From Kiritimatiellia bacterium (GTDB taxonomy: Bacteria; Verrucomicrobiota; Kiritimatiellia; UBA8416; YA12-FULL-48-11), in assembly GCA_028716365.1 (NCBI GenBank), contig JAQUPZ010000008.1, positions 124,001 to 188,000 of the forward strand: a stretch of DNA of 64,000 bases. Direction: 5' to 3'. Both the position numbers and the translations under genes were made by a program. Each line of letters begins with the position of its first letter. Within the stretch, counting starts at the first letter, position 1. Shown one piece after another: positions 20,231 to 52,932 of the stretch. The notes beneath the pieces are model-generated. The model made no database searches. It was not told where the DNA came from and was given only the letters and a program-made list of their open reading frames with translations.

Positions 20231-22663
20231 TTATATCAATCCTGAACGCTTACGCAGGATCCACTCCGCTGTCAGCAGGCAGATCAATGGTATAAACCAC
20301 CACCAGCTTTGCCACAATATAGTTTCAGATTCTTCGACGCGTCCCTTGCTGAATGGCTCCAGCCGCCTGGCCAGCTTTGATGCATCTTCTTCGCGGCAAT
20401 ATTCACCGCCCGAAGCCTTGGCCATCTGCAGTAACAGGTCTTCATTACAATTCAATTCGCCAAGTTCGAAAGCCGCATCTGCAGCTTTTCCCTGAACATA
20501 AAATTCAGCGCGTACATCAGATTTCTCCGGTACTAGGTCCTTCGCATTTATTCTGACTTGGTAACGGCCCGGCGCGAGGGGGCCCGTCCTGCCGCGGAAT
20601 GCGCCGCCGCTGTTTTCGTCCGCAAAAAGGGCAATCGTCGCTATCTTCTGGTCTTCACAGTAAAGCAGAGCCTGCGGATTCCCGTGCGATATTGCGCGGC
20701 CTTTTTCGTCGCGAAGACGAACACGTATCTCGACCGATTCACCGGCACGGTAATTGATCGACCCGGCGTCGAGTGCAACATACTTGTCACGGACCGCGTA
20801 AGGTTGTTCCATGATTGCATTCGCCAGCTGGTGCCAGTACGGCTCCTGATACTGGTCGGCAACATTATAGCGCCAACGCCATGTTTCATCCATACCCATG
20901 TACAACACTTTACCTGCGCCGAACTGCCTCAATACAACAACCGGAATTTTCCGGTTCCCGGCCACCGCTTCGACAAGAGTTTCAGTACCGGGAAATGCCT
21001 TGACGGATGCAACCCAGTGCGGAGGCGGCAGGTTCTGCCAGACTTTGGCATTTTCAGCAGTGTCTGCAGTAAGCCGCAGGGCCACATAGGAACTGCCACG
21101 GTCTGTCAGCCGTAACATCGAAGGAGGTTCCTTGACTCCTGCGGACTCTCTCTCAACAGGGAAGAGCGTGGCGATTGATCCCCACCCGTACTCGCGGTAA
21201 ACTTCCCTGCGGCCGTCCACCAGGAAAAGACCGCCGCCGCGGATATCGACAAACTCTTTGATCCATTCGAATTCATTTTCGTTCAGCAGTTTCCTCGGTA
21301 CTTCGCCAAAACAGATTAAATCATAAGCAAAGAGCAGTTCCTTCTTCGACGGGAACTGGCCCGGTCCTTCTCCGCGCCGCCAGGTATCTGTTGATTCTAT
21401 TCCCGCCACCAGGGAATTGACTTCCCATTGCGGATCCCGTTCAAAAATGTTCCTGATGTAGCGGAATTCCCAGCGCGGACGTCCATCCAGCAGCAGTAAT
21501 TTCCGGCGCTGGGTGACCGCACGAAAACGTAACAGGCTCTCGTTGTTTGTCCTGTCCTTTTCCCCATCAAGCGCCGGGATGCTGATCTTCATTGTCATTG
21601 GAAAGCTTGTATATTCCACATCTTCCGCTGTTTTCTTCCTGGCCTCGACCATTTCACGGATCGGAAAATCAAATTCTATTCTCCGGCGGTTGCTTCGTTC
21701 CGTCACGAGCGATTTCTCCCATAAAGTCCTGCCGCTTTCCTCTATTTTCACCATGAACTGCTGGCCTGCCTGCATATCATCTTTGACGACAATTTCACCC
21801 CTGACACGGTCCTCAAAAAATACGGCTTCCGGACCTTTGACCCCGATAACGGCGAGGTCACCGGGCCGTTCCATTGCACCCACTGCAACCGTGAATACAG
21901 GAATATTTCTTCCCCCTGCGACCTTTGCAATCTCTATCGGAGAATTACCCTGATTGTGCTGACCGTCGGACAGCATCAGGACAACGGCACGTTCGTCTTT
22001 CTTCTGGCCAATCCGTTTGCCAAGCGTATTACCAAGATCAGTTCCGTCGTCTTCCGGTTTCGCTGCAAAAGATTTCGGCATGGGACTGCCCTGTTCGGTG
22101 CTCCAGAGTCTTTGCGGTTCGGCGCCGGCAACTGCCCAGAGTTCAACATTGTGTTTCTCAGCCAGTTTCTGGACCAGGCCGTTTTTCTCGTTCAGCAGAA
22201 AATGTTCCATCCTCTGCCAGCGCGGCATTGCATCAAGTTTCTCTACGGCTGCTGCAACAGTGTCATTACTCAGTATCGCGCTGGTGATTGTGAAACCGGG
22301 TTGATTAGTCTTTACCGCACCCGGCGACAAAAGGTCATATGCCTGGGCAACCTGCAGTTTACGACCAAGATCCATAAACTCATCGGTAACACTCATGCTC
22401 CTTGATGAATCCACAAAAATCATCACGCGTGCCAGTTCGCCTATAACCCGCCGGTGATGAAGAACCGGCCCTGCCAGCATCATTACAATAAGAAATACCG
22501 CCGAAGACCGCAGGGCCGGCAGCAGCCACGGCAGGTTGCCGGACCGGTCACGTACCTCGCGGCGATAAAGTTTCCAGGCAATGGCCGCCAGGACCAGGGC
22601 AAGCGCTACGGCAACCCAAACGTTCCAATCGCCAAGGAATCGTAAATCGGTAACTGTCTTCAC
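20231..22663 (-). CDS. VWA-domain and GATase-like membrane protein (Bat-type)
   Basis: An 810-residue protein with two N-terminal spans (about residues 13-29 and 46-63). A von Willebrand A domain follows: IFVDSSRSMS is the DXSXS metal-ion site and MLSDGQHNQGN a later loop. Around residues 410-620 is a class I GATase-like segment (YDLICFGEVPRKLL, then FVDIRGGGLFLVDGRREV). A beta-sandwich follows before a final span (about 782-802, WWWFIPLICLLTAEWIL). This architecture is widespread in PVC genomes beside MoxR/DUF58. Such proteins are thought to face the periplasm and to be remodelled by the MoxR ATPase, but no activity is proved. Its start overlaps the stop of the BatA-like gene by four bases. 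Confidence 0.82.
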   Translation of the reverse strand: MKTVTDLRFLGDWNVWVAVALALVLAAIAWKLYRREVRDRSGNLPWLLPALRSSAVFLIVMMLAGPVLHHRRVIGELARVMIFVDSSRSMSVTDEFMDLGRKLQVAQAYDLLSPGAVKTNQPGFTITSAILSNDTVAAAVEKLDAMPRWQRMEHFLLNEKNGLVQKLAEKHNVELWAVAGAEPQRLWSTEQGSPMPKSFAAKPEDDGTDLGNTLGKRIGQKKDERAVVLMLSDGQHNQGNSPIEIAKVAGGRNIPVFTVAVGAMERPGDLAVIGVKGPEAVFFEDRVRGEIVVKDDMQAGQQFMVKIEESGRTLWEKSLVTERSNRRRIEFDFPIREMVEARKKTAEDVEYTSFPMTMKISIPALDGEKDRTNNESLLRFRAVTQRRKLLLLDGRPRWEFRYIRNIFERDPQWEVNSLVAGIESTDTWRRGEGPGQFPSKKELLFAYDLICFGEVPRKLLNENEFEWIKEFVDIRGGGLFLVDGRREVYREYGWGSIATLFPVERESAGVKEPPSMLRLTDRGSSYVALRLTADTAENAKVWQNLPPPHWVASVKAFPGTETLVEAVAGNRKIPVVVLRQFGAGKVLYMGMDETWRWRYNVADQYQEPYWHQLANAIMEQPYAVRDKYVALDAGSINYRAGESVEIRVRLRDEKGRAISHGNPQALLYCEDQKIATIALFADENSGGAFRGRTGPLAPGRYQVRINAKDLVPEKSDVRAEFYVQGKAADAAFELGELNCNEDLLLQMAKASGGEYCREEDASKLARRLEPFSKGRVEESETILWQSWWWFIPLICLLTAEWILRKRSGLI

Positions 22664-24831
22664 CGTTTGATCCCTCCAACACGTTGTTCAAGAAGGAGTT
22701 CCACAAAAATCAAACCAAGCAAAGCCCAAAGCAGGGGACGCCAGATTTCCCGTCCGTACCGCCGCCGTTGTTCCATCTGGCGATATTCGTCCATCGATTT
22801 GACAACTGTAGCTTCAAACGGTTTGGCCGCGGTCTTAATTTCATCAGCCGTCAACTGTGCCAGGTTGGACTCACTACGCGAGGTGTTGACTACAAAATGG
22901 ATCAATGATTTGTCCGGCAGTTCCAGCAGGTAAAGGCCGGGGATCCTGGTATCGTCAAAATTCAAGAGTGCGCGGCCACCCTGGTTTTTTGCCGTAAGCT
23001 TGTGTTTTTTTCCTCCGGGATCTGTCAGCTCCATTGTCTTGCCGTCCAATGCCGCCGGTAATGCTGCAATCAACGGAAGCCCCACCTGAATATTGCGAGG
23101 AGGATCGAACTTGGCGGCAAGATAGGTCACCAACTGCTGCATCAAAGGAAGATAAAACGGCCTTAACGGAAGATTGGACCAGTCGGCAGAGCAGGGGGTA
23201 CTGCAGATAATCACGCTTCCTTCGCCATATTTTTTTTCGATCATGAACGGATCACCGGTATTCAGGCGGGCCATCACAAACTCACCCGAATTGGTTTTTG
23301 CAGTTCCCTGTTTTTCCACAAGCTTGTACCACAACCTGATCGTGGCGGTGGATAGATCACCATTGCGCGGATCATTGAAAAGCTGGAAAGCCGGATGCTC
23401 CTGGTGCTGGCCAAGGATGGCGGCGTGCGGGTCATTGTCCTCCGGCCCGCCTTCAATTGTAGAGAACTTCCGCGGGAGCAGTCCTTTGCCGTCAGCGGAA
23501 AGTCTGGAATTATACCATGAGATATCGATGCGGTTGCCCGGGAATATCATCAGGCCGCCGCCGCCACGCACAAAATCTTCCAGTGCTTTTATCTGGTGGT
23601 CCTGAAGCTGTTGTACGTTGGCCAGTATAACTACCCGCACATCCTTGACTGTATGTGCGTCTACATGATGTTGATCAACAACACGGGTGGTGATGAGGTC
23701 GGCGAGACTGCCCTTTGTCGCATTGTAGGGCTGGAGCGCAATTTCCAGGAAATCGGTTTCGCCTTCAAGCGGCCCGCGGCCGGGATTGCCGTTGACCAGC
23801 AGAACCGGCAGTTTGTCCCACACCGGAACAGCCGCAAGCAGGACGTTGTCCGACTTCAATGCATCGGGAACATCGGTATCCACGGAAATGACATGCGAAC
23901 CTGCCTTGTCAAACGTGTGGGTAAACAGGACTTGTCCGGATTCATTCGGACCAAGTTCAATCTGCGCAACGGATTTTTCCGTACCGTCCACCCGGAAGAA
24001 AACACGCATGCTGGAATAACGGGAACTGCCATGGTTCTTGAGATGGGCGCGGACCTGGAATGGCTGGTTCACACCGAGCAGGAACCGTGAGAAATCCAGC
24101 GATTGAACGCTTACGTTGTTTTTGTCCTCTTGTCCGGTGTGAATAAACATGACGAGCGGTTTAACGGGCATATTTTTTATCAGGTTCGCCACGCGGGCAC
24201 GTTCGACATCTTCACTTTCCGCCCAGCTGATTTTCTGAAAGTCGCTGAGTACAATCATTTCACGGTGTGCCTCGTGCATTTTACCAAGTGTGCTGACGGC
24301 CATTTCCAGAGATGCAGGAACATCAGCGGCACCATAGCCGGTCTGCAGTTTACCCAGTTCGCGGGTTGCGCGCTCGGTGTTAAAGGTGGGTTCATCTAGC
24401 AGCGGACGCGGCAGTCCGCCCATTAAAATAACAGACAATTCCGAACCGCGTGCAAGATCATGGATGATTCTACCGGCAGAATCACGGGCCTGTACAAAAG
24501 TAGTGCGTTCCGCGGCACCGACTTCCATTGAATAACTGTTGTCCAGAACGACGACCACCGACGTTTTCGCGGCGCCAAGCAAGGTACGCATTCCCGTCAG
24601 AACGGGACGGGCCATGCAGAGTGCAAGGATGGCGGGTATCAAACAGCGGACAAGCAGGAGAAGCAGCTGTTCGAGTCTGAGCCTCCGTTTCTGGGTGCGT
24701 TGAAGTGATTCCAGAAGGTGCATTGCCCCCCACCTGATGATCTGGAAATGACTTTTGTGAAACAGGTGAATGATCAGGGGGATACTGGCTGCAACGATTC
24801 CACCAAGAAGAATGATATTAAGAAAGTTCAT
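22660..24831 (-). CDS. BatA/VWA domain membrane protein
   Basis: A 723-residue protein. The first ~80 residues match the aerotolerance-regulator N-terminal (BatA) domain: a span at residues 5-23, the signature [20 protein letters not shown], then [20 protein letters not shown], the second span. A VWA domain follows with the metal-site motif [12 protein letters not shown] (DXSXS). Residues ~360-560 are GATase-like ([20 protein letters not shown], then [17 protein letters not shown]). A C-terminal span lies near 698-716. It overlaps its upstream neighbour (DUF58) and downstream neighbour by four bases each, giving strict translational coupling. The neighbour at 20231 has the same VWA-GATase-like plan, so the two are probably paralogous partners. 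Confidence 0.85.
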
Positions 24832-46637: not shown

Positions 46638-46672
46638 AGTCTTCGTTCATCGCTTCGCTCCGAACGAAGACT
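46638..46672 (-). terminator. Stem-loop at the tRNA 3' end
   Basis: A perfect 11-bp stem, AGTCTTCGTTC (46638-46648) with GAACGAAGACT (46662-46672), around a 13-base loop immediately follows the CCA end of the minus-strand tRNA. It could mark termination or processing. No clear T-run follows on the minus strand, so the terminator call is tentative. Confidence 0.4.
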
Positions 46673-46747
46673 GGTGGAGCAGAGGAGATTCGAACTCCCG
46701 ACCCCCACGTTGCGAACGTGATGCTCTACCAACTGAGCTACTGCCCC
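46672..46747 (-). tRNA. tRNA-Ala (anticodon CGC)
   Basis: The minus strand gives a full cloverleaf. The acceptor GGGGCAG pairs with CTGCTCC with one G-T, the D arm is GCTC-AGTTGGTA-GAGC, the anticodon stem TCACG/CGTGG encloses the loop TTCGCAA (anticodon CGC, reading GCG), and the T arm contains TTCGAAT. The CCA end is encoded. The gene is intact and serves as the attachment site of the island to its right on the plus strand; its 5' half from the anticodon region on is duplicated at 52195-52235. Confidence 0.92.
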
Positions 46748-46777
46748 ATGCTTCGTAAAACGCCGATACAATCGCAG
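46707..46777. repeat. Left attachment repeat (attL), 71 bp
   Basis: This segment is identical, base for base, to 52195-52265. It runs from inside the tRNA anticodon arm (ACGTTGCGAACG) through the tRNA 5' end at 46747 and 30 bases into its upstream flank (ending CGATACAATCGCAG). A lower-similarity match continues for another 100 bases. Confidence 0.85.
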
Positions 46778-46955
46778 ATTTTCTAGGGATTTCAAGCATT
46801 TCCCTCAGCTTATCAAAATCCTCTTATTCCCTTAAAATCCTCTTATGGCGATGCAAAATATGCCACCGAAATGCCACCAAAAGTGTAAGGGATATTTCGG
46901 GTAGGTCTGAAACTTTGTAATCGAATAATACAATTTGTTAGTTTTAAGGGGGTTG

Positions 46956-47450
46956 CTATCCAAATATATCAAATATATTAAGTCCGTCCTGTTTCACCAA
47001 CCCACGTGCAGGTCGATCTGTATGTGAGAACGTAACCTTATAGTAAAGTTTCCCCTGTTCAAGAAGCTCTGAATAGTTATCGTCATTAAAGGGGTGGTTA
47101 TTCTTATCTGAGAAAAAATACTTACCTGTCCAAACTCCGCCGGGAACAAGCAAAAAAGGCAAATTCAAGCTGGGATCTGAAGCAGAAAGATTTCTAGTGC
47201 TACTAACCATTCTGAGTAGTCGAAGAAACGGGTTCTTTTGATACGTAACAAGCATAACCTCACGGATAGTTGTTACTTTTCCTCCCCGATTACAGATCTC
47301 GCAGCAAATACCTTTTCCATCAATACCATCAATACCCGCAACCTTGATCGAAAGACGTATGCCTTCCTTTTTCCACTTATAAATATCCCAAACAGCAACC
47401 AAGGAGGAAAGAATCGCTCCCCATAATGCTAAGAGTGTTGTCGTAGTCAT
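46956..47450 (-). CDS. Island hypothetical protein with N-terminal membrane span
   Basis: A 164-residue protein beginning MTTTTLLALWGAILSSLVAV, a single span at about residues 4-22, followed by a basic WKKEGIRLS stretch, which suggests the C-terminal part faces the cytoplasm. The remainder is beta-rich (IKVAGIDGIDGKGICCEICN, then WTGKYFFSDKN). It contains a CCEIC cysteine cluster. I recognise no family. Similar small proteins with one span and a beta-sandwich are frequent cargo in islands. It is transcribed towards the tRNA, 127 bp beyond the stop of the next minus-strand gene. Confidence 0.6.
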   Translation of the reverse strand: MTTTTLLALWGAILSSLVAVWDIYKWKKEGIRLSIKVAGIDGIDGKGICCEICNRGGKVTTIREVMLVTYQKNPFLRLLRMVSSTRNLSASDPSLNLPFLLVPGGVWTGKYFFSDKNNHPFNDDNYSELLEQGKLYYKVTFSHTDRPARGLVKQDGLNIFDIFG

Positions 47451-47576: not shown

Positions 47577-48548
47577 TCAATCGATCTTTAAGCGATCAAG
47601 TAATTCCTGACAGTTTTGACAATAATAAGTTCCTCTTTCAGTCCTCATCTTTGCATTGTAAGTATTTTGTGCCATTGCCTTCTTATCAAATATACCTTGG
47701 AAATTCAGAGAGTTGAAGAACTGTGCATCCATATACAATTCTGAAGGGTTGTGAATATTATTTTTTATGGCATTTCTAACAGCCTCATCAATGGACAGGC
47801 AGTCAGCGAAAGGTATGCCAAGGCTATTGATGCAAACGTGATTCTTTGTTTCAGAGAAATGGAGTAGAGGGTCTTCGTAGTATTCGTTGCTCCCTTGGGT
47901 AAAGATTGCATACAAATTAAGTCCGAGAGTTCTTTTGTAAATTGATTGAAGCTCTTTGACCAATTTTATGAATATCTCTGGTTTATATGTGCATTTAACC
48001 CCACGCCTGAAATAACCAACATGCCAGTTACTTTTTAGGAGCAAGCTATCACCAAATGAAAGAAATGATACATTTGGATAGAGCTTGGACAGTTTGTCAA
48101 TTTCGCCTCTCAGTAGAATAAGCTGGTCTCTAGAAAGAGTTCCGTTCCGAATAGAATCTTTTACTCCAATAGCGTCAATAAGCCCGAAAACGGAATATTG
48201 TCGTAGAAAAAGACTCTCCAGCCATTGGTGTTTTACGAATATGTGAGGTTTCTCGCCACCATCATAAGAACCTACGCAAGTGACAAACTTTTCTGCTGGA
48301 AGGACTATGGGAACTTCGTGATACCTATCGATACTATTTGGATACCAAGATAACTCTACCGAATTGGTGAATATTCTTTTTGCAACTATGTAAGAAATAT
48401 ACCCAACAGCCCTATATTCTTCACCGTTGCAGGATTCAATTAATGCCTTCTCGTATTCTTCAAGGTATATCTCATCTATCAAGAAACACTCTCTGCCAAG
48501 CGGGATATCCTCAAAACGGTAGACTTGAATCATCTCGTGTTCAAACAA
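47577..48548 (-). CDS. Island hypothetical protein with C-terminal CxxC
   Basis: A 323-residue cytoplasmic protein. The TTG start is chosen because GGAGG lies six bases before it. No family is certain. The centre (about residues 155-175) reads YPNVSFLSFGDSLLLKSNW, recalling the metal-binding turn of nucleotide-cyclase-like palm domains, and LNLYAIFTQGSNEYYEDPLL follows. This likeness is weak and no second catalytic motif was found. The C-terminus has YYCQNCQELL, a possible zinc knuckle. It is read away from the integrase remnant. It could be stand-alone cargo or a defence component. Confidence 0.6.
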   Translation of the reverse strand: MFEHEMIQVYRFEDIPLGRECFLIDEIYLEEYEKALIESCNGEEYRAVGYISYIVAKRIFTNSVELSWYPNSIDRYHEVPIVLPAEKFVTCVGSYDGGEKPHIFVKHQWLESLFLRQYSVFGLIDAIGVKDSIRNGTLSRDQLILLRGEIDKLSKLYPNVSFLSFGDSLLLKSNWHVGYFRRGVKCTYKPEIFIKLVKELQSIYKRTLGLNLYAIFTQGSNEYYEDPLLHFSETKNHVCINSLGIPFADCLSIDEAVRNAIKNNIHNPSELYMDAQFFNSLNFQGIFDKKAMAQNTYNAKMRTERGTYYCQNCQELLDRLKID

Positions 48549-48725: not shown

Positions 48726-48983
48726 CAATTCTATTCGCTACGACATACCTTTGCCAGTTTACAATCAGATAATGGAACAGAAACAACGGCTTTGGCTTCT
48801 CTCATGGGACACAGCTCTGTAAGAACTTTGCAACGATATGTCACCAATACTTTTGAACACCATAAAAATGCAGTAGATAATCTTGAGAGAAATTTGCAGG
48901 CAGTAATTGGAACGGTTGAGCAAGTAAGAATTAAGAGGGATGAGGAAAAGATAGCAAAGAAGGCGGTTGAGATGATGAAGTAG
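48726..48983 (+). pseudogene. Tyrosine recombinase (phage-type integrase), C-terminal fragment
   Basis: An open frame with no ATG at its head encodes YSLRHTFASLQSDNG, then LMGHSSVRTLQRYVTN, followed by a helical tail to the stop. These contain the box II Arg-His (LRHT), the second His/Arg context (MGHSSV) and the Tyr nucleophile (RYV) of the tyrosine recombinase active site. A TAG at 48723 ends the frame upstream, and the N-terminal and core-binding parts are absent, so this is the relic of the island's integrase. Family usual length is about 350-400 residues; about 85 remain. Confidence 0.8.
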
Positions 48984-49153: not shown

Positions 49154-49372
49154 ATGATTACGAGTAAGAATAGACTTAAACAAGTGATTGTTGCCGAAGG
49201 TATTACTCAGGCTGAATTATCAAGGAAATGTGGACTTTCTACTGGTACGATTAATAGAGCCTGTAATCAGGTGCTAATCTTATCTCCAACATCGAGAAGT
49301 AAAATACTAAAAGCGATTAATGACCTATCGGGGAAAAAGTATATTCATAAGAAACTTTTCGGTTGCAAATAG
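49154..49372 (+). CDS. Small HTH (XRE-type) DNA-binding protein
   Basis: A 72-residue protein. Residues ~6-60 form a helix-turn-helix of the Cro/C1 type: LKQVIVAEGITQAELSRKCGLSTGTINRA carries the two recognition helices, then SPTSRSKILKAINDLSGK. It has no other domain. It precedes the three-gene cassette by 128 bp on the same strand and is a natural candidate for its regulator, or a phage-type immunity repressor of the island. No strong ribosome site precedes the ATG. Confidence 0.75.
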   Translation: MITSKNRLKQVIVAEGITQAELSRKCGLSTGTINRACNQVLILSPTSRSKILKAINDLSGKKYIHKKLFGCK

Positions 49373-49500
49373 ATAATACCGAGAGCAATGTATATTAGTT
49401 TAAATCTCCCGACAATTGTATTTGAAATAAGTAGGAATATAAAAATTAAACAAATTATGTGTTCCAGCAAGCGAACAAAGTTCAACAAGGAGGAAGTGTT

Positions 49501-49983
49501 ATGATTCCAAATTCGCTAACAAAAACAGGAGCGTATGCTGGATTATGGAGTTATTTGAAATCCGTTGATTGTGCATTAGCTCGATCCCTCGACGAGAAAA
49601 CATCTCCAAAGCTCACGGAATTCGATAAAGAACGAATTAACTCTTTTGCGGATTTTCTGGAAGATGGGATAAGTATTAACAAACAAGAGTCATTTACTCC
49701 TTCCCATCTATTACAGTATATGGAAAAACACGAACCAAATTATAGTTCATCCCTTAATCTGCGTTCTTTGATTTCCGAGGTAGAAGAATTTGATTCTTTT
49801 CAAAAAATGCAAAGAGTGGGTTTTGATAAAAAGCTTCAAAAGCTCATTGAGTCTATTCGGTCTTCTTTAAACCCTTCGGAAAAGGATTTATTTATTTATT
49901 CAACGTATCATGAGGAATTTACGTTGCTTAGGCTTATCGTTCAAAATTTATTGCGGCATGCAGAGGTTAGTTTGACCGAATAG
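49501..49983 (+). CDS. Cassette gene 1: helical protein of unknown family
   Basis: The ATG at 49501 is chosen over a longer frame because AAGGAGGA precedes it by five bases. The 160-residue product is predicted almost entirely helical and polar (TEFDKERINSFADFLEDG, then FDKKLQKLIESIRSSLNPSE) and ends in ILRLIVQNLLRHAEV-like hydrophobic helices (LLRLIVQNLLRHAEV). No signal, membrane span or catalytic motif is seen. It ends ten bases before the zinc-peptidase-like gene, so the three cassette genes form one operon. It may be a partner, an inhibitor or a sensor of the peptidase. Family unknown to me. Confidence 0.65.
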   Translation: MIPNSLTKTGAYAGLWSYLKSVDCALARSLDEKTSPKLTEFDKERINSFADFLEDGISINKQESFTPSHLLQYMEKHEPNYSSSLNLRSLISEVEEFDSFQKMQRVGFDKKLQKLIESIRSSLNPSEKDLFIYSTYHEEFTLLRLIVQNLLRHAEVSLTE

Positions 49984-49993
49984 AGAAGTCCAT

Positions 49994-51403
49994 ATGATTA
50001 CGTCGTTGACCGAGCATTCGGCAATTCGATCAAAAGCACTTGCGATGATTGAAAGAGCCGTGTCACGAGTCAAGGAAATCGATAAATGGCACTTTCCCAC
50101 TTTTTCGACAGAAGATGCAAGAAAACTAATACTTTCATCATTGGAAGCAATCAGAGCACCTACAAACCTAGTGCCGATGGATCCAGCGGTTCTGTATATG
50201 CGTTTCTTTTCCATCGAGCAAATGATACATCTTCTTGAATCTTCGTCAATAGACCATATTTCGTGGCCGATAGTTGGTTATTATGATGAAATATGGGATC
50301 TATTCTTTGGCAAAGATGGCCCCAAAGTTTTCTATTCAGTCACGGTAGACCATAATTACAAAATACGACGTTTCAGCAAAACGATGTCTTTTGCTTTACG
50401 TGATCTTTTACCACATGCAAAAGTTGAATCTTTGTTATCGGGCAAAGAATTATATTGTCTCGAGTTAGCATCGTCGGAAGATAATAACCTTCCAATGTAT
50501 GCAAATATTGGGCATGAGTTTGGTCATGTCGTGCATGATCAGACGCAAAAAGAAATTTCTCCGTTATTCATTAATCATTTTTTACCAGTTTTTGAAAATA
50601 TGTCTAAAGATATTATTGATGCTGGACCATCAAAGTCTACAAGTCACACAGCCTTTAAAATTGTAAATGCTATAGGGAGTCTTGCAGAGGAGTTATTTAG
50701 TGACATGGTTGGAGCGATTCTCTTAGGGCCTGCTTTTTATCTATCGCTTTCAGAAATGGGTTGGGGACTTGATCGTGACTCATGCAAAGTCCATTTATTA
50801 CCAACGGATGATCGTGTTCGAGCACATCCAAGTTTTAATTTTCGACTTAAATGTATAAGACATATTGCTCAGATTGATAATTTCTGTGAACAAATTAAAG
50901 TAAAATCACAGAAAAATAAAGATATGGGCTTTATCAATATATCGGACTATTTTTTGAAAGAAATAAATGCAGAAAAGAGCGAGATAGTAGTATCTCCTTC
51001 TTCCGACAGTGATTCGGCTTTTATTGAACATATATTTAAAGTTCGACTCCCTGAGATGAATATAGCTTTTGAATCTTTTGTTAATGATTGCGAAAAGAAA
51101 ATAAGGGGATTGTTCAAAATACCGCCCTCCTGCGATGTTTCAGATGTGATGGAATTGATTCTAAGATTACGTCAATGGATATTACCAAATATTGTGCCTA
51201 ATGGAACGTTATTGGGAAAGGTCCCTTCGTTCAATTGTATTCTTACAGCCTCAGCACTTTGCCGCATAGAATCGCTTGCAAATGGTAATTTTGATAAACA
51301 GAAAGAGTTATCAAATAAAATTTATAAGATTGATCGCCTCACGGAGAAAGCTCTAGAAGTCTCGCTGATACAACGCATGTATAACGAAAGGCCTAAAAGG
51401 TAA
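49994..51403 (+). CDS. Cassette gene 2: gluzincin-type zinc metallopeptidase-like protein
   Basis: A 469-residue soluble protein. Residues 174-178 are HEFGH, the zinc-binding HEXXH. The second-helix motif EELFSD places an EXXXD (E233, D237) 55 residues later, as in gluzincin peptidases. The surrounding LAEELFSDMVGAILLGPAFYLSL is hydrophobic and helical, typical for the lower lobe. The N-terminal 170 residues and C-terminal 200 residues match nothing I know. There is no signal peptide, so it would act in the cytoplasm, like the ImmA-type or defence-associated peptidases. It sits between the helical protein (10 bp gap) and the deaminase-like gene (5 bp gap). It may cleave a partner protein on a trigger; this is inference. 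Confidence 0.72.
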   Translation: MITSLTEHSAIRSKALAMIERAVSRVKEIDKWHFPTFSTEDARKLILSSLEAIRAPTNLVPMDPAVLYMRFFSIEQMIHLLESSSIDHISWPIVGYYDEIWDLFFGKDGPKVFYSVTVDHNYKIRRFSKTMSFALRDLLPHAKVESLLSGKELYCLELASSEDNNLPMYANIGHEFGHVVHDQTQKEISPLFINHFLPVFENMSKDIIDAGPSKSTSHTAFKIVNAIGSLAEELFSDMVGAILLGPAFYLSLSEMGWGLDRDSCKVHLLPTDDRVRAHPSFNFRLKCIRHIAQIDNFCEQIKVKSQKNKDMGFINISDYFLKEINAEKSEIVVSPSSDSDSAFIEHIFKVRLPEMNIAFESFVNDCEKKIRGLFKIPPSCDVSDVMELILRLRQWILPNIVPNGTLLGKVPSFNCILTASALCRIESLANGNFDKQKELSNKIYKIDRLTEKALEVSLIQRMYNERPKR

Positions 51404-51408
51404 TATCA

Positions 51409-52038
51409 ATGGCAGTTCTTAACAACAGTGATATCAAGAAACGTATTGAAGAAACAAATTATACAAAAAAACTTATTATCACGCCATTACTTTCCGAGGG
51501 ACAAATTGGAACTGCATCTGTAGACATTCGGCTTGGCTCGTCTATTATTATTCCAAAAAAAGTCTATTTGGAAAAACAAGATGTAACAGATGAGGAAATG
51601 GTTTTGCAGGTTGAAAAAAGGCGTTATGATAAAGTAAAGTTACAATATCATTCACAATTCATGTTACACCCAAATCAACTTATTTTGAGCGGGACATTTG
51701 AATACATATGTTTGCCAGACGATTTGTTTTCAACAGTCATGAGTCGTTCTTCTTGGGGACGACTGGGGTTAGTAGTAGCAACGGCATCAGCTATTCAACC
51801 CGGATATAAAGGGTGTTTAACGTTAGAACTTGTTAACGTTAGTGAAAGTCCTATAGCCCTTTATCCGGGGTTATCTATCGGACAATTGGTGTTCCATGAA
51901 GTCATAGGAAAAGGAGCATTATCATCATATGAGGGAAGATATGATTGTCCTACGGAAGCAGAACTTCCGAAGTTCTTCCACAGCCAAGAAGATTATGAGC
52001 TTACCTTTTGGGGATCTAAAAAGCCCAGCCGAATTTAA
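51409..52038 (+). CDS. Cassette gene 3: dCTP deaminase/dUTPase-fold protein
   Basis: A 209-residue protein of the trimeric dUTPase/dCTP-deaminase (Dcd) fold. GTASVDIRLGSS (about residues 34-45) matches the first conserved motif. SRSSWGRLG (112-120) holds the Ser/Arg pair that binds phosphate and the deamination site. ATASAIQPGYKGCLTLELVN includes E140, equivalent to the general-base Glu of E. coli Dcd (E138), and YPGLSIGQLVF closes the core. The C-terminal 40 residues are extended. Enzymes of this group convert dCTP to dUTP, or to dUMP when bifunctional. The gene lies five bases after the peptidase gene on an AT-rich island, so it is accessory rather than the housekeeping copy. Nucleotide depletion during phage infection is a plausible role. 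Confidence 0.85.
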   Translation: MAVLNNSDIKKRIEETNYTKKLIITPLLSEGQIGTASVDIRLGSSIIIPKKVYLEKQDVTDEEMVLQVEKRRYDKVKLQYHSQFMLHPNQLILSGTFEYICLPDDLFSTVMSRSSWGRLGLVVATASAIQPGYKGCLTLELVNVSESPIALYPGLSIGQLVFHEVIGKGALSSYEGRYDCPTEAELPKFFHSQEDYELTFWGSKKPSRI

Positions 52039-52194: not shown

Positions 52195-52265
52195 ACGTTG
52201 CGAACGTGATGCTCTACCAACTGAGCTACTGCCCCATGCTTCGTAAAACGCCGATACAATCGCAG
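52195..52265. repeat. Right attachment repeat (attR) with tRNA-Ala 5' fragment
   Basis: Identical to 46707-46777 over 71 bases. The first 41 bases are a copy of the tRNA 5' half (anticodon arm to position 1) and the rest is upstream flank. The 3' half of the tRNA is missing, so this copy cannot make a tRNA. Confidence 0.85.
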
Positions 52266-52932
52266 GTTTTCCAGCAATTTCAAGCATTTCCATCAGCTTG
52301 TTGAAATCGTCATTTTAGCTCATAATCGTCATATTGCGATACAAAATGTGCCCAAAATGTGCCACCGAAATGCCACGGATTTGCAAACAAGATGCCAACA
52401 AGAAAGGGGGTGGTATCATTGTTGTTTTGTAGGGTGGGGATGAGGTAGGATGAGACAGAAGCGGGAGGCGTTTAATGGAAAGAATTGTTGCAATGAAATA
52501 TTCCTGTATTGTTCTGCTATGTCACTCCAAAGCAGGAATAAAACCATGGATCACTCAGTTGGAAAAATTTATCGTCGTCCCGGTCGAAAGAAAAGATGAA
52601 GTGGATGAAGACGACTGACCCAAAAAGTCCTGCATTGCCGTTGACGGTGATCCATCATCAGGCGATGAATTTACTGTGATCGTATGCTTGGAATTATCAT
52701 CATCGGAATCCTCACAGCCCGCCATAATGAATAACGACAAAACCAGCCAGACAACCAGAATTTTCCTGATACAACCACGCATGATTTTCATAACATTCCG
52801 ATCTATCAAGTCCAGGCCGATACTTTCACAGGTTCTCCAGGGATTTCAAGCATTTCTATCAGCTTGTTAAAATCATCGTATAAGCCGAATTCAGTTGTTT
52901 CAAAGACAAAATGTGCCACCGAAATGACATGG
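52266..52932. repeat. Degenerate attachment-flank repeats to the right of the island
   Basis: The flank following attR (52266-52377) resembles the flank of attL (46778-46881), and a third copy without tRNA sequence lies at about 52829-52932. All share ATTTCAAGCATTTC, a CAGCTTNTNAAAATC core and the CCACCGAAATG motif. The stretch 52039-52554 holds no gene; it consists of these repeats plus unassigned DNA (52380-52554). The third copy suggests an older insertion now reduced to about 0.56 kb. Confidence 0.6.
52555..52809 (-). CDS. Small lipoprotein
   Basis: An 84-residue protein with a signal (ILVVWLVLSLFIMAGC) ending in a lipobox at the Cys, followed by an acidic DSDDDNSK linker and a Ser/Thr-rich tail. 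A second Met at residue 7 (MKIMRGCIRK) gives a more usual signal length and may be the real start. No family is recognised. It lies between the second and third attachment-like repeats, so it may be the remaining cargo of an older insertion. Confidence 0.5.
   Translation of the reverse strand: MIDRNVMKIMRGCIRKILVVWLVLSLFIMAGCEDSDDDNSKHTITVNSSPDDGSPSTAMQDFLGQSSSSTSSFLSTGTTINFSN

Follow-up and report, generated by a model that had tools for sequence, protein, structure and literature searches.

A mobile three-gene unit encoding a helical protein, an M48-like peptidase and a Dcd-fold deaminase is probably an undescribed defence system

We identified three adjacent genes, coding for a small helical protein, a putative M48-like metallopeptidase and a protein of the dCTP deaminase (Dcd) fold, which are inherited together as a single mobile unit that occurs alongside defence loci. 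This trio is probably an undescribed defence system acting on the DNA building-block pool, and we regard it as a mobile inter-genomic conflict system, most likely an anti-phage one. The copy described here lies in a window of 64,000 nucleotides (the whole stretch analysed), on contig C8 of a 5.80-Mb Kiritimatiellia genome.

The three genes are located on the plus strand and, as read in the earlier note, all of them exist, are open and conserved, and are separated by gaps of 10 bp (helical protein to peptidase) and 5 bp (peptidase to Dcd). Gene 1 (49501..49983) encodes 160 amino acid residues, gene 2 (49994..51403) 469 and gene 3 (51409..52038) 209. The most likely start of gene 1 is ATG 49501, behind a GGAGG sequence; a start at GTG 49459, giving 174 residues, was rejected as a mechanical open reading frame. 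The island around the trio has a GC content of 0.36–0.39, vs about 0.50 in its flanks, and is bounded by two direct repeats of 176 bp each, 85% identical in a repeat search, which are putative attachment sites. The left repeat (46707..46882) consists of the 5′ half of a tRNA-Ala gene (46672–46747, minus strand, from a tRNA gene call) plus 135 bp, and the right one (52195..52370) starts 157 bp past the Dcd stop codon, in agreement with the tRNA-linked, AT-rich island proposed before. Upstream of the trio there is a C-terminal remnant of a tyrosine recombinase (63 codons, LMGHSSVRTLQRYV; 48792..48983, plus strand; weak XerC match, E 0.03). Since the island is bounded by repeats, the left of which extends into the tRNA gene, and the recombinase is only a remnant, the island looks like a decayed tRNA-integrated element. 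The same 5.5-kb island carries, on the minus strand, two orphan genes with no family match (46956–47450, 164 residues, and 47577–48548, 323 residues). A partial third copy of the attachment-site repeat is present beyond the island (52250–52319 and 52816–52885) and suggests a second insertion, nested or tandem.

A gene for a helix-turn-helix (HTH) regulator of 72 residues precedes the trio (49154..49372, plus strand). It is real, as judged by its HTH_24 and HTH_3 matches, and its place in the cassette, suggested in the same early reading, did not hold: at that position, other trios have MerR or a divergent Cro/CI gene, or lack an HTH gene altogether. We therefore rejected it as a component; it is at most a local regulator, outside the conserved unit. 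An ImmA/IrrE-type peptidase with an HTH partner was also considered and rejected, given the peptidase's lack of a family match and the non-conservation of the HTH gene among trios.

The assignment of gene 3 is the firmest. The window Dcd exceeds the curated cut-offs of TIGR02274 (128.4 vs 92.8 bits) and PF22769 (116.7 vs 27), and phmmer aligns the trio Dcd with Dcds of the PDB at E about 1e-21. Residues Ser114, Arg118 and Glu140 of the window protein align with Ser111, Arg115 and the catalytic Glu138 of E. coli Dcd and are kept in 16/16 trio Dcds, which confirms Glu140, singled out beforehand, as the counterpart of Glu138. The equivalents of E. coli His121 and Asp128 are replaced in trio Dcds (A/S/N/E and Q/H/E, respectively; the window protein has gap/A and Q), and in the E. 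coli-type trio Dcds the loop is two residues shorter. We do not read this loss as the mark of a dead enzyme, since verrucomicrobial Dcds encoded as single genes likewise have neither residue. The remodelled segment coincides in part with that of the conformational switch for dTTP inhibition, so an altered regulation is possible, and the trio Dcd may differ from E. coli Dcd in substrate or in regulation. The general mechanism of this inhibition is given in PMC4827122.

The trio Dcd is not the housekeeping enzyme. It is literally the only dcd in the window genome, a circumstance that had been named as one that would speak against a defence role: of the other two PF22769 matches, one is a dUTPase and the other a membrane protein that is Dcd-like but devoid of the catalytic glutamate. 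This does not overturn the claim, because the genome has a dCMP-deaminase-type gene (PF00383, zinc fold), no Dcd exceeds the cut-off in 29 of 30 members of the same order, and in E. coli the chromosomal dcd (udk-dcd-asmA) is present as well, as a gene distinct from that of the trio. From the first two of these observations, the lineage appears to make its dTMP precursors without Dcd. In the same genome we noticed a 337-residue protein (locus L003, 1492–2502; contig C1, 400413–401423) that begins with a Dcd-like domain in which the catalytic Glu has been lost; a coiled coil comes next, with about two apparent membrane helices. From its sequence it looks like a nucleotide-sensing membrane effector, and searches of 288 related genomes, of plasmids and of viral contigs gave no relative of it.

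The peptidase encoded by gene 2 is best called an M48-like gluzincin, in line with the gluzincin type expected. In an alignment of 16 homologous peptidases, His174, Glu175, Gly177, His178, Glu233, Asp237, Gly245, Pro279 and Arg284 are invariant, and Ser84 is nearly so; His174 and Glu175 had already been picked out as key residues. The HEFGH zinc-binding motif (His174–His178) is encoded at 50513..50527 and the ELFSD motif, with the predicted third zinc ligand Glu233 and the following Asp237, at 50690..50704, both on the plus strand. This catalytic set is constant although many pairs among the 16 proteins, which are mostly helical and 340–510 residues long, are only 11–20% identical. No Pfam, NCBIfam or PADLOC family matches the window peptidase over any cut-off, and Pfam M48 stays below the gathering score, with weak matches in 4 of 12 members (best E 0.01) and none for the window protein. 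In turn, the trio peptidase profile weakly recovers M48-type proteins (E 5e-6 to 7e-4), with which it has the HExGH/ExxxD/HP..R set in common; the label M48-like thus reflects a shared core and weak profile recovery, yet no Pfam cut-off reached. We saw no lipobox or signal peptide in the peptidase. Profile-profile comparison (E 4.6e-6) supports the homology of its two main clades.

The helical protein is the fastest-diverging member of the trio, with a median identity of 16% vs 18% for the peptidase and 33% for Dcd, the slowest. In every window-type locus, a homologue of 158–164 residues is encoded immediately before the peptidase; between the two main clades, the homology of the helical proteins is putative. 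As to families, no Pfam, NCBIfam or PADLOC model matches it over any cut-off. Its AlphaFold2 model is all-helical (pLDDT 71.7; 73.2 for that of the peptidase), and Foldseek searches with both models, which are moderate and built from six-sequence alignments, gave no PDB match at E ≤ 0.001.

Homologues of the peptidase are rare, being present in 1 of 193 relatives and in 2 of 289 genomes of the phylum. The first relative found is on a conjugative Bradyrhizobium plasmid, in the same helical protein-peptidase-dcd order, and two further genomes, G455 and a Spartobacteria metagenome-assembled genome of the same phylum (G202, PMTM01000006; locus L024), have that order too. A scan of 84,980 genomes with the peptidase only gave five confirmed loci, all five with the three genes in order. 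Plasmid searches with Dcd and with the peptidase added trios from Rhizobium phaseoli, Shinella, Rhizobium CIAT894, E. coli/Salmonella, Emticicia, Bradyrhizobium japonicum and Agrobacterium fabrum, and genome G081 contains an additional complete one. In total, 15 complete trios were read, in four phyla (Verrucomicrobiota, Planctomycetota, Pseudomonadota and Bacteroidota), the frameshift-rich copies of Salmonella Sa1423 plasmids and a broken prophage copy with no Dcd (L020) being set aside; the genes within a trio often overlap. Window-type queries gave no trio match in viral contigs, nor was there one in phage records.

The components have been inherited together. The distance matrices of peptidase and Dcd are strongly correlated (Mantel 0.83, with 0 of 2000 permutations as high), those of peptidase and helical protein less so (0.51), and the peptidase and Dcd trees contain the same groups. 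The trio Dcds may, or may not, be a single clade (2 label changes vs a shuffled mean of 9.8). Peptidase homologues unaccompanied by Dcd are a distant Sinorhizobium terangae protein, a 637-residue relative in genome G237 and decayed copies. The former is on a plasmid, together with a 1595-residue ATP-binding protein, a CHAT protein and a C25 peptidase (L007, 725–10552), possibly as a separate protease-based conflict system with no Dcd. The latter (L070, 553–3353) is M48-like (AHEVGH...REIVAD) and lies beside an astacin-like metalloprotease frame.

As the proposed neighbourhood survey would have it, the trio recurs as a unit on unrelated mobile elements, beside known defence genes, in a census that is qualitative and has no matched control. 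In Emticicia it sits between hsdR and hsdS/hsdM, inside a type I restriction-modification (RM) locus, and in A. fabrum it has multi-ubiquitin/ThiF/DUF6527 genes on one side and, on the other, a ThsA-like SIR2 protein (E 5.9e-26) with VapC after it. The trios of Shinella and CIAT894 have the same ubiquitin-type neighbour; on three rhizobial plasmids (L012, 1939–5995; L013; L029, 2977–7634) the multi-ubiquitin/ThiF/DUF6527 genes stand directly upstream of the trio, as if the two made up a single defence operon. Other neighbours are a protein matching reverse transcriptase-associated nitrilase models and a UvrD-type helicase (near the B. japonicum trio), a subtilase and a DrmC-like phospholipase (B. 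quebecense), and a NACHT-model protein and Fic (R. phaseoli). In E. coli, the trio is carried by P1-like phage-plasmids in 8 of 5,426 genomes (one copy lies at 21078–23070 of CP122828), and the same slot holds other or fewer genes in other P1-like plasmids. This slot follows ash/icd/Rha genes and its cargo varies by isolate (L014, 4500–6600; L060, 2600–4500; L061, 2600–4900).

We lean, by a little, towards a widespread three-gene immunity built on a cytoplasmic M48-like protease and a Dcd-fold deaminase, where either the protease gates the deaminase or the nucleotide product of the deaminase gates the protease. Both activities seem to be needed, since neither enzyme has lost its catalytic residues in any trio examined. 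The form we favour is a Dcd effector that is gated by the peptidase and lowers dCTP, because a slowly diverging Dcd fits an executing enzyme and a fast-diverging peptidase and helical protein fit recognition or control; taken by itself, it comes close to an even chance without reaching it. In this scheme, the M48-like peptidase would be the switch: in uninfected cells it would stay inactive along with the fast-diverging helical protein, and on infection it would cleave either the helical protein, as an inhibitor or tether, or the Dcd complex, and so free the deaminase. Dcd would be the effector, as its catalytic Ser, Arg and Glu are kept in 16/16 proteins and it is the slowest-diverging component; once released, it would convert dCTP to dUTP, which the host dUTPase would turn into dUMP, so that dCTP would fall and phage DNA synthesis would stall. 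Defence through a deaminase toxin that depletes dCTP is already established (PMC10511110).

The main rival to the peptidase-gated Dcd effector reverses this logic: a Dcd-fold trimer would sense the nucleotide change brought by infection, or make a dU nucleotide signal, and the metallopeptidase would be the effector, cleaving a host or phage protein. Such an arrangement would account for a peptidase catalytic set that is kept in all 16 proteins at such low identities, and the distant S. terangae homologue, beside CHAT and ATPase proteins with no Dcd, hints that the peptidase may be a self-contained module. The remodelling around positions 121–128, the Dcd-like domain that precedes apparent membrane helices and has lost its catalytic Glu in the same genome, and the non-canonical nucleotide signal used by Kongming (PMC12948488) point the same way. 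A pure sensor, however, would need no catalytic Glu, yet this residue is retained throughout the trio Dcds, and sensors are usually the fastest to diverge, whereas Dcd has changed least among the three proteins. On balance, we consider the reversed arrangement rather unlikely.

Readings other than defence have less in their favour. Accessory nucleotide metabolism or DNA replication of the mobile elements, with Dcd giving dUTP for dTTP synthesis, would agree with the frequent occurrence of Dcds on plasmids, where ordinary ones with no peptidase exist. It is nonetheless improbable: a metabolic role leaves unexplained why the peptidase and helical partner are always there, why the trio is so sparsely distributed and why it is placed within RM and next to SIR2 loci. 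Moreover, hosts such as E. coli have their own dcd, and both dut and a dCMP-deaminase-type gene are present in the window genome. An addiction module of the toxin-antitoxin kind, with a toxic Dcd that is neutralised by the helical protein and/or the peptidase so as to stabilise the element, seems to us a shade more doubtful still: the small first gene, the overlapping genes and the carriage by plasmids and phage-plasmids would suit it, but there are three genes and not two, the peptidase active site is invariant and the window copy resides in a decayed chromosomal island. Addiction would, in any case, be compatible with defence.

In its proposed outcome, the loss of dCTP on infection, the trio resembles AvcID and the defensive dC deaminases (PADLOC "dCTPase"; AvcD: PMC10511110). 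AvcD, however, is under an RNA antitoxin, and the trio includes a peptidase and a helical protein as well; moreover, the PADLOC dCTPase model matches the zinc-fold PF00383 deaminase of the window genome (2.5e-31) but not the trio Dcd, which matches none of the PADLOC families, and the earlier distinction between the Dcd fold and the zinc fold of known defence deaminases therefore stands. The housekeeping Dcd (TIGR02274; E. coli 1XS1 and 4XJC) has the same fold, length and catalytic Ser/Arg/Glu, whereas the trio Dcd is encoded with a peptidase on mobile DNA and has its His121/Asp128 equivalents replaced. M48 peptidases of the BepA/LoiP type have the same HExGH...ExxxD...HP..R core; the trio peptidase differs from them in its sub-threshold Pfam score, its length and mostly helical make-up, its near-invariant Ser84, the lipobox and signal peptide that we did not see in it, and its pairing with Dcd. 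Kongming (KomA deaminase, KomB sensor and KomC effector) is likewise made of three genes, with a deaminase that alters the nucleotide pool on infection (PMC12948488), but its folds are others, its signal is dITP and its effector depletes NAD. We found no description of the trio in the open-licence literature or in the PADLOC 2023 release; it may be described elsewhere.

The E. coli version, on P1-like phage-plasmids, makes the proposal directly testable. If it is true, a second, unrelated deaminase fold would take part in nucleotide-pool immunity, coupled to a protease, and this protease would provide a level of control that the dNTP-depletion systems described so far do not show. Dcd paralogues and "hypothetical proteins" encoded on plasmids and P1-like phages would also receive an assignment.
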